Of a stretch of DNA of 64,000 nucleotides, positions 27,377 to 31,801 are shown piece by piece. The stretch covers positions 1 through 64,000 of the forward strand of contig NZ_RQYT01000009.1 in assembly GCF_003932785.1 (NCBI RefSeq), in the 5' to 3' direction. The notes beneath the pieces are model-generated. The model searched no databases and was not told the DNA's origin. It saw only the letters and a list, made by a program, of their open reading frames with translations. The stretch comes from Arachnia propionica. Lineage in GTDB: Bacteria > Actinomycetota > Actinomycetes > Propionibacteriales > Propionibacteriaceae. A program made the position numbers and the translations under genes. The first letter of the stretch is position 1, and each line of letters begins with the position of its first letter.

Positions 27377-28470
27377 TTTTCCTCTTCTCTACGAATGGAC
27401 TGGAGTGCCTGGCGCGCGAGGACGTCGGCGGCGTCAGCCGGCGAGTGCGGGCGGGCCAGGTCACCCATGCGGGCGAGTTCGTCGGGATCGGTGATCCTGG
27501 GGACGATCACCTCGACGAGTCTAGCGGGGGTGAGCTCCGCTTCAGGGAGCATGACGCCGGCACCGTCGGCGACCAGCCCGGCCGCGTTCCGCGCCTGCTC
27601 ACCGTTGCCCCACGGCAGGGGGATGAACACGACGGGCAGCCCGAGGACCGCGGTCTCCATGACGGTGCCCGCACCGGCCCGACCCACCATGAGGTCGGCC
27701 GCCCGGTAGGCCTCGATCATCGCGTCGACGTAGGCGACGGGGACGTAGCGCCCACCCGAGGGGTCCTCGATGACGACGTCCGCGTCGGTGAAGTTCTTGC
27801 CGCCGAGGACGTGGAGGATCTGGATCCCCCGGGAGAGCAGTTCCGGCACCGCCTCCCGCAGCGCCTCGTTGATCGCCCTGGCCCCCTGCGAGCCGCCGCT
27901 GACCAGCAGGGTGGGGCGGCTCGGGTCGAGCCCGAACCGGGCGCTGGCCTCCTCACGGGTGAGCGTCGGTGCCGTGATGGAACGGTTCATGGGCATCCCG
28001 ATCCGCACACCGCCACGGATCTCGGTCTCGGGGAAGGTGTACCCGGTGAAACTCGCGAAACGCGCAGCCACCTTGTTCGCGATCCCGACCACCCGGTTCG
28101 CCTCGTGGACGCACACCGGCACCCGGAGGGTCCGGGCGGCCAGGTACGCGGGAATCGAGACGTAACCGCCGAAACCGACGAGGACCTGCGCCCGGGTGCG
28201 CCGCAGGATCGCCCGGGCCTCGCGCACGGACTGCAGCAGGTTCCAGGGCAGCTTCACCAGGTCCAGGTTGAGTTTCCGGGGCATCGGCACCGGCCGGATG
28301 AGTTCCAGCGTCAACCCGGCCTGCGGGATGACGCGGGTCTCGAGCCCCTTGGCCGTGCCGATGCAGGTGATCTCGACCCCCGGGTCGAGCTCCTGCAGGG
28401 CCTGCGCCGTCGCGATGAGGGGGGAGGTGTGCCCGGCGGTCCCACCGCCGGCGAGGACGACCCGGCTCAC
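27373..28470 (-). CDS. murG: Lipid II synthase (MurG GlcNAc transferase)
   Basis: Transfers GlcNAc from UDP-GlcNAc to lipid I on the inner membrane face. The 365 residues show the glycine-rich N-terminal loop VLAGGGTAGHTSP, GFGGYVSIPA, HEANRVVGIANK, SGGSQGARAINE and the UDP-GlcNAc site GRAGAGTVMETAVLGLP...GNGEQARNA. The GTG at 28470 overlaps the ftsW stop (GTGA). A longer frame reading through ftsW to 29274 is spurious. Confidence 0.96.
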   Translation of the reverse strand: MSRVVLAGGGTAGHTSPLIATAQALQELDPGVEITCIGTAKGLETRVIPQAGLTLELIRPVPMPRKLNLDLVKLPWNLLQSVREARAILRRTRAQVLVGFGGYVSIPAYLAARTLRVPVCVHEANRVVGIANKVAARFASFTGYTFPETEIRGGVRIGMPMNRSITAPTLTREEASARFGLDPSRPTLLVSGGSQGARAINEALREAVPELLSRGIQILHVLGGKNFTDADVVIEDPSGGRYVPVAYVDAMIEAYRAADLMVGRAGAGTVMETAVLGLPVVFIPLPWGNGEQARNAAGLVADGAGVMLPEAELTPARLVEVIVPRITDPDELARMGDLARPHSPADAADVLARQALQSIRREEEK

Positions 28471-29696
28471 GAGTCCGACCCCGCGGCCAGGACGCTGGTC
28501 ATGCGCGGACCGGATGCGCGTTTGCGACTCGCCAGATAGGCACGTGCCCGGGGTGTGTTCCGGGCACAGGCGAGCAGGACGCCGATGGCCATGAGATTGG
28601 CCATGAGAGCGGAGCCCCCGGAGGAGATGAAGGGGAGCGGGACACCGAGCACGGGGAGCAGATTCATGACCACCATGATGTTGACGAGGGCTTGCAGCAG
28701 GAACCAGCTGGTGATTCCCGCCGCCACGAGACGATTGAACATCCTGTCGGATTGGAGGGCCACCTGGAAACCGCTGCGCGCGAGAAGAGCGAACAGCCCC
28801 AGCACGAGCAGCACCCCGAACAGCCCCAGCTCCTCCCCCAGCACGGCGAAGACGAAGTCGGTGTGGGCCCCCTCCTTGAGCCCACCCCACTTCTGCTTGC
28901 TGGCGCCCAGCCCCAGGCCCCACCAGCCGCCGGAGGCCAGCGCGTAGAGGGCCGCCATCGGCTGGGAGGCGAGGTCCGTGTTGCTCTGGGGGTCGAAGAA
29001 GATCATGAACCGGGCCATCCGGTTGGGGGATCCCATCACGAGCACGACCACGATGCCGATGACCGCCAGCACGGCCGGGGCGAGGAACCTCAGTGGGGCA
29101 CCGACGAAGAAGACGAGACAGAAGATGATGGCACCGAAGACGAGCCCCGTCCCAAGGTCCTTGCCCGCCAGGATCAGCACGAGCAGCGTCAACGCTCCCG
29201 GGGCGAAGGGGACGAACAGGTCCCACGGGTTGTGGAGCTTCGTCCGGTTGCGGTGGTAGACGGAGGCCCCCCACACGACGAGCCCGAGCTTCGCGAACTC
29301 CGAGGGCTGGATGGTGAGCAGGGTCCCGATCCGGATCCAGTTCCGGTTGCCGTAGATCTCGAATCCCAGCGGGGTCTGGACGAGGATGAGGCCCACGCAG
29401 GCGACGAGCCAGCCGACGTTGCCCAGCCGCCTCAGGAGGTCGGGACTCATCCGGCTGAGCGGCACCAGGAGCACGAGGGCCACCACGAGGAAGATCAACT
29501 GCCGGATCACGAAGTAGTACGGCGACTCCCCCTGCGCCAGGGCGATCACGGCACTCGAGGAGAGCACCATCATCGTCCCGATGGCCGTCAGGATCACGGT
29601 GGAGAAGATGATGAGGTGATGATCGGCCATGGGCGATCGGGCGAAACTCCTGACGAAGGAGTCCGCCGGGCGCGCGGCCACGGTCGTGCTGGACAT
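28467..29696 (-). CDS. ftsW: Septal peptidoglycan polymerase FtsW
   Basis: SEDS-family glycosyltransferase that polymerises lipid II with FtsI. The 409 residues have about ten membrane helices. Typical segments are MVLSSSAVIAL in helix 1, RNWIRIGTLLTIQPSEFAKL, LAGKDLGTGLVF, GGWWGLGLGASKQKWGGLKEGAHTDFVFAVLGEELG and PLPFISSGGSAL. It is separated from the murD-like gene by 111 bases, the only real gap in the run from rsmH to ftsQ. Confidence 0.96.
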   Translation of the reverse strand: MSSTTVAARPADSFVRSFARSPMADHHLIIFSTVILTAIGTMMVLSSSAVIALAQGESPYYFVIRQLIFLVVALVLLVPLSRMSPDLLRRLGNVGWLVACVGLILVQTPLGFEIYGNRNWIRIGTLLTIQPSEFAKLGLVVWGASVYHRNRTKLHNPWDLFVPFAPGALTLLVLILAGKDLGTGLVFGAIIFCLVFFVGAPLRFLAPAVLAVIGIVVVLVMGSPNRMARFMIFFDPQSNTDLASQPMAALYALASGGWWGLGLGASKQKWGGLKEGAHTDFVFAVLGEELGLFGVLLVLGLFALLARSGFQVALQSDRMFNRLVAAGITSWFLLQALVNIMVVMNLLPVLGVPLPFISSGGSALMANLMAIGVLLACARNTPRARAYLASRKRASGPRMTSVLAAGSDS

Positions 29697-29807
29697 CTCA
29701 CTCCTCGGACGCGGAAGGGGAAGACGGACGGCCGGCGCCCGCGTGCCATCCTTCCTCCATGGTCGTGGCTACGGGGGCGATTGGGGCGGAGATCGGCCGC
29801 GTGTCGG

Positions 29808-30734
29808 TCAATCCGTGGTCGAGCCGAGCAGTCCCGAGCGGATGGCCTGCGCGGGAGTCCCGACCCCGCGGGCCAGTGCCGCCGCCGCGCAGACGATCCC
29901 GACCCGGCCCGCCGCGTCGTCGACCTTCGCGAGTTCCAGGGCGGATCGTTGCCGCTGGGCGACGAAGGCCCGGTCGACGATGAGGTCATCGACCACGCCA
30001 ACCATCGAGACGGCGGGGATGCCGGTGGTGAACCCGACGGCGCGCGCCCCCTCCGTGACCTCGGCCTCCTCGACCATCCGTTCCGTGGCGGGGTCCTCCA
30101 CGTTGTAGACGCAGAAGTTCGTGACCCGCTCGTAGACCGTCGCCAGGTCGTCGGCACGCTCCCCGGCATCGAGCACCGCGGCGGAGTGGAGGGCGAGGGT
30201 CTCCACCCCCTGCAGTTGGTCGGCGGAGAGTTCCACCACGAGGACGTCCGACGGGGCGTCGTCAAGCACCGCCTCGACCACGGGACGACCGCGCGAACCG
30301 GCCTCGGCCACCCGCATCCCGGCGGCACGGAGCATGGCGCCGACCAGCCGCACCACCTCGACCCGCTCCGGCGAGCCGGTGACCCCGAGCCACGGGACAA
30401 GAGGGCGCTCCTGCTGAAGTCGCCAGGCAAGCTCCACCTCACTCCACACCGGCACCCCGAGTTCCGCCGCCCGCACGGCCAGGGGGGCGGAACGGTCCCA
30501 GCCGGTGGAGAGCACCAGCACGTCCGTCCCCTCCGGCAGGGCGGCGGTGGCCCCCTCCCCCAGTCGCACGTCGACGTCGAGGGTGCCCAGCATGGCGGCC
30601 GGTTCCGTGAGGTTCGGGTCGTCGTCGAGGACCGTGACCTCCGCACCGAGCAGGACAAGCGCATCGGCGGCTGCCAGCCCGGAGCGCCCGAGACCGGCGA
30701 CGACCGCGCGCCTGCCGTCGAGGCGCGCACTCAC
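29808..30734 (-). CDS. murD: MurD-like protein: truncated, P-loop and C-terminal domain missing
   Basis: It occupies the murD slot and is homologous over its length, but only 308 residues remain against about 450 for a working UDP-MurNAc-L-Ala:D-Glu ligase. Domain 1 (about 5-100) is recognisable, with VVAGLGRSGLAAADAL and LSTGWDRSAPL. In domain 2 the P-loop TGTNGK(T/S)T has become TGSPERVE (119-126), losing the ATP-binding Lys. The NVTEDHMDRY-type motif is now DAGERADDLATV, losing the His. ELS at 168-170 survives. Domain 3 is absent. GTG 30734 overlaps the mraY TGA by 4 bases. Reading frame and GC-rich third positions are intact, so it looks maintained. It cannot be expected to catalyse the ligation. 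Confidence 0.85.
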   Translation of the reverse strand: MSARLDGRRAVVAGLGRSGLAAADALVLLGAEVTVLDDDPNLTEPAAMLGTLDVDVRLGEGATAALPEGTDVLVLSTGWDRSAPLAVRAAELGVPVWSEVELAWRLQQERPLVPWLGVTGSPERVEVVRLVGAMLRAAGMRVAEAGSRGRPVVEAVLDDAPSDVLVVELSADQLQGVETLALHSAAVLDAGERADDLATVYERVTNFCVYNVEDPATERMVEEAEVTEGARAVGFTTGIPAVSMVGVVDDLIVDRAFVAQRQRSALELAKVDDAAGRVGIVCAAAALARGVGTPAQAIRSGLLGSTTD

Positions 30735-31801
30735 TGCCCCGCCACCCATTCGGTGTAGAAGATGCCGACGGCGCTGGCGACGCACAGACCACAGATGATC
30801 CAGAACCGGATGACCACCGTCACCTCGGCCCAGCCCAACAGCTCGAAATGGTGGTGGATGGGCGACATCTTGAAGATGCGCTTACCCTTCGTGAGCTTGA
30901 AGTAGCCGACCTGCAGGGCGACCGAACCGGCCTCCATGACGAAGAGGAAGCCCATGACGACGAGCAGGAGTTCGGTGCGGGTGAGGATCGACATCCCGGC
31001 CAGCGCCGCACCGATCGCCATCGAGCCGGTGTCCCCCATGAAGATCTTCGCGGGTTTGGCGTTCCACCACAGGAAGCCGAAGCACGCGCCCGCCATCGCG
31101 AAGGCGACCACGGCGAGGTCGTAGGGGTCCCGGACCTCGTAGCAGAGGGGACCGGAGCTGGAGCTGCGACCACACCACTGGTTGAACTGCCAGATGTTGA
31201 CCAGGGTGAGGGCAGCGAAGACGAGCGTGGCGCTGCCCGCCAGCAACCCGTCCAGACCATCGGTGAGGTTCGTGGCGTTCGGCCAGGCCATGAGCAGGAA
31301 GACGATCCACAGCACCGCGAGGAAGAAAGGCAGGTGCAGCCACGGGATGTCCCGCAGGAAGGAGATGAACTGGGAGGCTGGGCGCAGACCGCGTTCATCC
31401 GGGAAGTTGAGGGCCAGCACCGCGAAGGTGCCGCCGATGAGGAACTGGCCGACGAGCTTGCCCCGGGCCGTGAGACCCAACGAGCGCTCCTTCGAGATCT
31501 TGGCCCAGTCGTCGAGGAAGCCGAGGAAGCCCATCGCCGCGGTCACCCCGATCAGCAGCAGCCCGGAGACCGTCACCGGTTGCCACAGGATGAGATGGGC
31601 GAGGAAGTACCCCACCACGACGGCGCCGACGATGACGACCCCACCCATCGTGGGGGTGCCGCGCTTGGTCAGGTGCTCCTGGGGGCCGTCGTCGCGGATG
31701 AACTGGCCGTACTGCCGTCGGATGAGGAACGTGATGAACCTCGGGGTGACCAGGAGGCTGATGAGCAGCGCCAACCCACCCGCGAGCAGGATCGTCTTCA
31801 T
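30731..31801 (-). CDS. mraY: Phospho-MurNAc-pentapeptide transferase
   Basis: Makes lipid I by moving phospho-MurNAc-pentapeptide to undecaprenyl phosphate. The 356 residues have about ten helices. Signature parts are GTPTMGGVVIV, the Asp pair FLDDWAKISKERSLGL, LTDGLDGLL and the loop KIFMGDTGSMAIG with HHHFELLGW near the C-terminus. The ATG overlaps the murF stop by 4 bases. Confidence 0.97.
   Translation of the reverse strand: MKTILLAGGLALLISLLVTPRFITFLIRRQYGQFIRDDGPQEHLTKRGTPTMGGVVIVGAVVVGYFLAHLILWQPVTVSGLLLIGVTAAMGFLGFLDDWAKISKERSLGLTARGKLVGQFLIGGTFAVLALNFPDERGLRPASQFISFLRDIPWLHLPFFLAVLWIVFLLMAWPNATNLTDGLDGLLAGSATLVFAALTLVNIWQFNQWCGRSSSSGPLCYEVRDPYDLAVVAFAMAGACFGFLWWNAKPAKIFMGDTGSMAIGAALAGMSILTRTELLLVVMGFLFVMEAGSVALQVGYFKLTKGKRIFKMSPIHHHFELLGWAEVTVVIRFWIICGLCVASAVGIFYTEWVAGQ

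Follow-up and report, generated by a model that had tools for sequence, protein, structure and literature searches.

A two-domain MurD pseudoenzyme in the dcw cluster of Arachnia propionica, arisen repeatedly in Propionibacteriales with MurL and maintained by selection

The mraY-ftsW interval of the window

The window, the whole stretch of 64,000 nucleotides of Arachnia propionica that was analyzed (contig NZ_RQYT01000009.1), contains a dcw cluster in which mraY (30731..31801; TIGR00445, 310 bits against a cut-off of 192) and ftsW (28467..29696; TIGR02614, 352 bits against a cut-off of 337.5) enclose, at the murD position, the gene of a two-domain MurD pseudoenzyme (29808..30734). All window features described here lie on the minus strand. 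The gene encodes 308 aa, has a TGA stop, and begins with a GTG codon that overlaps the end of mraY in the sequence GTGA. The protein combines the fold of MurD domains 1 and 2 with the dcw position, and its score against the MurD equivalog model TIGR01087 is 98.2 bits, below the cut-off of 211.95.

The P-loop is degenerate and reads TGSPERVE at residues 119–126 (30357..30380, counted from the sequence). About 14 residues of domain 2 that would contain the DH motif (Asp182-His183) are deleted, at a site that the alignment places approximately at 30150..30170. The position of Glu157 is still a glutamate (VVELS). Residues 221–268 (29931..30074, also counted from the sequence) form a segment of domain 2 that is nearly invariant among truncated copies of the gene. 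Domain 3 is missing, as the protein stops at the domain 2/3 boundary (stop codon and last seven residues, 29808..29831), and the 111-bp spacer up to ftsW (29697..29807), the former place of domain 3, gave no clear remnant when compared with that domain (best E 2.5). An earlier note on this DNA had described the 308-codon ORF, the TGSPERVE motif and the loss of the DH motif and of domain 3, and both re-reading and alignment bear it out. Structure prediction yielded a confident fold model, which may lean towards MurD because its alignment of 38 rows includes just two forms known to be truncated, L082 and the window protein itself. An assembly or frameshift artefact was rejected, the same form being found in three species of the genus, that of the window included, and in 26 further genomes.

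MurD2 and MurL in the same genome

The earlier note had predicted either another MurD or a route through L-Glu, and had proposed searching the genome for a full-length MurD. In the genome of the window (99.99% complete) a single MurD-family match exceeds the cut-off, a full-length, MurD2-like gene on contig C113, and it adjoins a gene for a MurL-like protein of 455 aa, which bears out the prediction. The genes beside this pair we take to be pncB, clpS, rph and rdgB, which is presumably the usual neighborhood of murI. The MurL-like protein scored 335 bits over residues 43–454 against NF041275, a model named for Xanthomonadales with a cut-off of 700, and matched an annotated Xanthomonas murL at 43.5%; MurL had no match in Pfam and none in a PDB sequence search. 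A search of the same genome for MurI (glutamate racemase) found none. MurI above cut-off was likewise found in none of the 34 MurL-positive genomes tested (G765 was left out of this search), versus all eight MurL-negative controls; four of the 34 had matches of 26–29 bits, far below the cut-off of 146.65.

In all six MurD2 sequences aligned, the position of Lys348 is Arg, and in four of the six, including that of the window genome, the position of Asp182 is Glu. These two positions are named as L-Glu determinants of MurD2 in the available part of PMC8788868. The MurL-MurD2-like pair, the L-Glu determinants and the lack of MurI are the features shared with the pathway described there for Xanthomonas and rare actinobacteria, and they make it very probable that the organism obtains its D-Glu through the MurD2/MurL route. 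The active site and domain 3 of the window protein were then most likely lost because another pathway performs the chemistry of MurD.

Occurrence of the truncated form

MurL was searched in 198 genomes of the same family (7 positive), in 341 Nocardioidaceae-like genomes (31 positive, 3 weak) and in 393 genomes of the class (20 positive); G536 and G745, being the same genome, were counted once. Among the 539 genomes of the two families, 35 have a clear MurL, and the canonical domain 3 of MurD is missing in 31 of these 35. The mraY-ftsW interval was readable in 34 of them; in the 35th, G861, mraY was not found. In 29 of the 34 loci an open frame encodes a two-domain MurD, four loci hold a full-length MurD (all in one clade) and one is frame-broken, that of G765, whose assembly is 70% complete and whose own MurL is broken too. 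The frame is thus open in 29 of the 30 loci that are not full-length, and outright removal of murD was seen in none of the 34 loci read in this order. The control loci were full-length throughout (mraY-ftsW interval; 16/16 MurL-negative and 3/3 weak-MurL genomes), and so was MurD in each of the 27 MurL-negative loci of the same family that were printed, with an unusual C-terminal end in G076.

Beyond the loci read, the state of MurD was judged by a search with domain 3 alone. In the family of the window, the matches were no more than weak in all seven MurL-positive genomes (E 1e-8 to 6e-12) and strong (E <= 3.7e-20) in 187 of the 191 MurL-negative ones; the remaining four, without a match, are drafts 59–91% complete. 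In the second family, domain 3 was missing in 24 and present in four of the 28 clear MurL-positive genomes, and it was found in 3/3 weak-MurL and 301/310 MurL-negative genomes. The other nine MurL-negative genomes, drafts 57–93% complete, gave one weak match and eight none.

The full-length exceptions are a Nocardioidaceae-like clade (L218, L223, L224 and L227 of G690, G693, G746 and G655) that has MurL and MurD2, no MurI, and a catalytic-looking dcw MurD, with a dN/dS of 0.03 in both pairs tested. This is perhaps the state just before truncation. Two further genomes (G673 and G751; L205 and L206) have remote MurL-like proteins (about 29% identity), no adjoining MurD2 and a full-length MurD; these MurL-like proteins probably have a different function.

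The two-domain form was found in none of 16 MurL-positive genomes examined from other orders. Nine of these have no MurD between mraY and ftsW, three have a full-length MurD, two only a domain-3 piece, and two murL-murD2 in the place of murD. The role of the remnant is therefore not needed in all actinobacteria; the need is either specific to the order of the window or met otherwise in the other orders. The domain-3 pieces (L171 and L172 of G405 and G323) are ORFs of 135 aa that match the domain 3 end of MurD, the opposite remnant to that of the window. In L166 and L169 (G161 and G297) the replacing genes murL and murD2 lie within the dcw cluster itself.

Recurrence

The tree of MraY and FtsW, two genes of the same cluster, was computed with IQ-TREE (quick) on 73 rows; G765 and G076 were excluded from it and from the site table described below. 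On this tree, 13 changes are required to explain the truncated state, and starred branches force 12 of them. A single ancient truncation in one clade was rejected (AU p 4e-51 for mraY and ftsW, a value that speaks for these two neighboring genes). Of 13 independent pairs with a contrast in MurL, 12 show the matching difference in truncation, none the opposite and one no difference (p 0.0005).

A FastTree of MurD itself places truncated copies from different genera, and from both families, together. Many truncated Nocardioidaceae-like copies are joined there, and those of G000, G036 and G857 join other long-branch truncated copies, among them one pair from the other family. Because the best full-length matches of the window protein are congeneric (63–64%), we read this grouping as long-branch attraction, and the truncated murD alone may have been transferred between some lineages. 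Truncation is parallel, in about a dozen lineages, rather than inherited once. Four truncated copies have partly intact P-loops (G716 TGTHGKTT, G662 TGTKGKTT, G050 TGTHGRTT and G648 TGSDGTTT), and therefore domain 3 seems to go first.

Residues lost and kept

The site table compares 29 truncated copies with 40 full-length MurDs, and the site names used (Lys115 of the P-loop, Asn138 and the metal-binding Glu157, His183 and Lys198) follow what we take to be the numbering of E. coli MurD. The P-loop reads TGTNGKTT in 40/40 of the full-length relatives. Among the 29 truncated copies Lys115 survives in two, Lys198 in none, Asn138 in four, His183 in three and Glu157 in six, one of which is the window's. 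Gln162 is present in 29/29 and Ser71 in 20/29.

Identity among the truncated copies reaches 93% or more in 62 columns. These are densest at reference residues 235–282 (22 of 48), and 46 of them are found beyond domain 1, at positions past reference residue 95. The stretch around this dense segment, reference residues 222–294, is 73 residues long at the median in truncated and full-length copies alike; E. coli MurD has 60 residues there and six MurD2s have 39–59. A set of 70 full-length MurDs, retrieved for their similarity to the window protein and by record title mostly from other actinobacterial families, largely conserves the domain-2 segment too. The segment could be needed for folding only.

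Measured from reference residue 321, the domain 2/3 boundary, the C-terminal end follows after 2–8 residues in 26 of the 29 copies and after 14 (G716), 15 (G021) and 35 (G889) residues in the other three. Clear scraps of domain 3 (E <= 3e-8) remain in four of the 29 spacers (G050, G716, G662 and G767) and weak ones (E 0.001) in two more. Such decayed scraps beside conserved domains 1 and 2 provide an internal control: the part that is not needed decays, and domains 1 and 2 do not. A moved or split gene was rejected, since the remnants in those four spacers are partial and the domain-3 query gave nothing stronger than weak matches in those four genomes. In G036 the spacer 3' of the truncated murD is about 400 bp long (L100:2432-2820) and contains repeated words similar to GGGACCAC, possibly an inserted repeat element.

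Selection on the truncated gene

Pairwise maximum-likelihood codon models were applied to 15 sister pairs of truncated genes. Because dS was saturated in nine of the 15 and near zero in one, we relied on five pairs from four clades. Their dN/dS values are 0.07, 0.05, 0.03, 0.05 and 0.03, at dS of 0.48–1.61, with likelihood-ratio values of 103–260 against a dN/dS of 1. The values for ftsW in the same five pairs are 0.03–0.10, and those of full-length MurD pairs with dS < 2 over the same residues are 0.01–0.05. The constraint acts on the protein, since synonymous change is no less free in the conserved segment than outside it. The truncated MurD is maintained by purifying selection, and simple decay, for which the earlier note had named a dN/dS near 1 and stop codons in relatives as the signs, was rejected.

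Discussion

The window protein shares its descent, its place between mraY and ftsW and the fold of domains 1 and 2 with ordinary MurD. It differs in that domain 3 is gone and that its score falls below the MurD cut-off; the equivalents of the P-loop Lys, Lys198, His183 and Glu157, too, are missing in most of the 29 truncated copies. We consider it rather probable that the protein is a MurD-derived pseudoenzyme which, after a takeover by MurD2 and MurL, has been selected for non-catalytic docking with products of the dcw cluster. According to this explanation, a lineage would gain MurD2, which ligates L-Glu, together with MurL, which epimerizes L-Glu to D-Glu in the peptide, and both MurI and the catalysis of MurD would then be unnecessary. 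Domain 3 would probably be lost first, and the P-loop and metal-binding residues afterwards. Domains 1 and 2, including the lengthened domain-2 segment, would be retained by selection for a non-catalytic function, which may be to dock in a membrane-side complex with MraY, MurG, FtsW or other divisome proteins and so hold the Mur relay together. MurD2, being shorter in the domain-2 segment, presumably could not fill this role. The lack of the two-domain form in the 16 MurL-positive genomes of other orders, the four full-length loci of one clade and the frame-broken locus of G765 speak against the explanation.

Such docking fits what is known of active Mur ligases. In mycobacteria the Mur synthetases have FtsW, FtsQ, FtsZ, Wag31, SepF, PknA and PknB as interaction partners, as far as the available part of PMC3605390 describes them, and MurD of Thermotoga binds MurG and MreB (cited in the available part of PMC6420597, where MurG appears as a scaffold). 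The ligases for which these two accounts propose or report docking to MurG, MreB and division proteins are active enzymes, whereas the present protein has lost its catalytic part, with the remainder preserved. The scaffold that the earlier note had offered as one role for the remnant is, judged from sequence, plausible.

Several other explanations have to be weighed. The remnant might serve the new pathway as a subunit or regulator, binding MurD2 or MurL or sensing UDP-MurNAc-L-Ala. It goes with MurL, the 13 of 539 genomes without a clear MurL or a clear domain 3 all being incomplete drafts, and Gln162 and, mostly, Ser71 are kept. However, Asn138 and His183, which contact UMA, are mostly gone, and for this reason a UDP-MurNAc-peptide binder, another suggestion of the earlier note, is disfavored as well. 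Thirteen of the 16 MurL-positive genomes of other orders also do without an N-terminal MurD in the dcw cluster, and the kept segment is largely conserved in full-length MurDs too, so that we regard a subunit or regulator as unlikely. A role in cis, in which the ORF is kept just for translational coupling from mraY to ftsW or against polarity, would agree with the stop-start overlap with mraY, seen in six out of eight truncated genes inspected at their starts, and with the gene never having been removed outright in this order. Any open frame would suffice for it, though, and the amino acids are under selection while synonymous sites diverge in the five pairs; the ends of the proteins coincide with a domain boundary, and MurL-positive genomes of other orders often lack the remnant. 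We give such a role little weight.

The domain-1 residues Gly14 and Gly19 and their neighbors are conserved, and there are weak matches to NAD-domain Pfam families, as would be expected if the Rossmann-like domain 1 had acquired a new, ATP-independent enzymatic activity. But this region is equally conserved in ordinary MurD and most of the best-conserved columns lie outside domain 1, which makes a new activity very improbable. Lost catalytic sites, the frame-broken copy of G765 and the decaying domain-3 remnants are what a neutral relic in slow decay would show as well; against the dN/dS and likelihood-ratio values of the five pairs, the open frames and the confident fold model, we attach hardly any credence to it.

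Returning to the docking explanation, retention of the remnant in many lineages suggests a further function of MurD besides catalysis. A broader proposal would be that MurD of actinobacteria moonlights and that Propionibacteriales cannot do without its non-catalytic half, the two-domain form having been carved out repeatedly after MurL and MurD2 had taken over the chemistry and exposing, in the lengthened domain-2 segment, a docking module of the peptidoglycan precursor complex; for this we see the balance as even.

Pseudoenzymes and the MurD2/MurL route are already known. The available part of PMC8788868 does not mention a retained truncated MurD in the dcw cluster, unlike what is seen here, and the actinobacterial genera it names (Micromonospora, Actinoplanes, Verrucosispora and Salinispora) are from neither of the two families studied. 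We found no report of a retained two-domain or truncated MurD in the open-licence literature, which does not imply its absence from print; the available parts of PMC5808125 and PMC6736417 hold nothing on it. It has long been asked whether Mur ligases and partners on the membrane side assemble into a physical complex, and as long as catalysis is essential the question is difficult to address. In these bacteria the two have been separated by nature, as about a dozen lineages dropped catalysis and retained the remainder. A non-catalytic function of MurD becomes testable in them by simple deletion, and the conserved segment is the surface to probe.

Additional observations

In G021 and G495, murF was not found between pbp2 and mraY (L135:5396-8390 and L160:5377-8074), where the spacing is too small for it; murE was not found in the L135 interval either, which is too small to fit murE and murF. 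Eight Nocardioidaceae-like genomes have a second full-length MraY-like gene (52–55% to the window MraY; for example L255, L256 and L257), with no visible relation to the truncated MurD. ABC-transporter-like genes lie near this second gene in G690 and G759.
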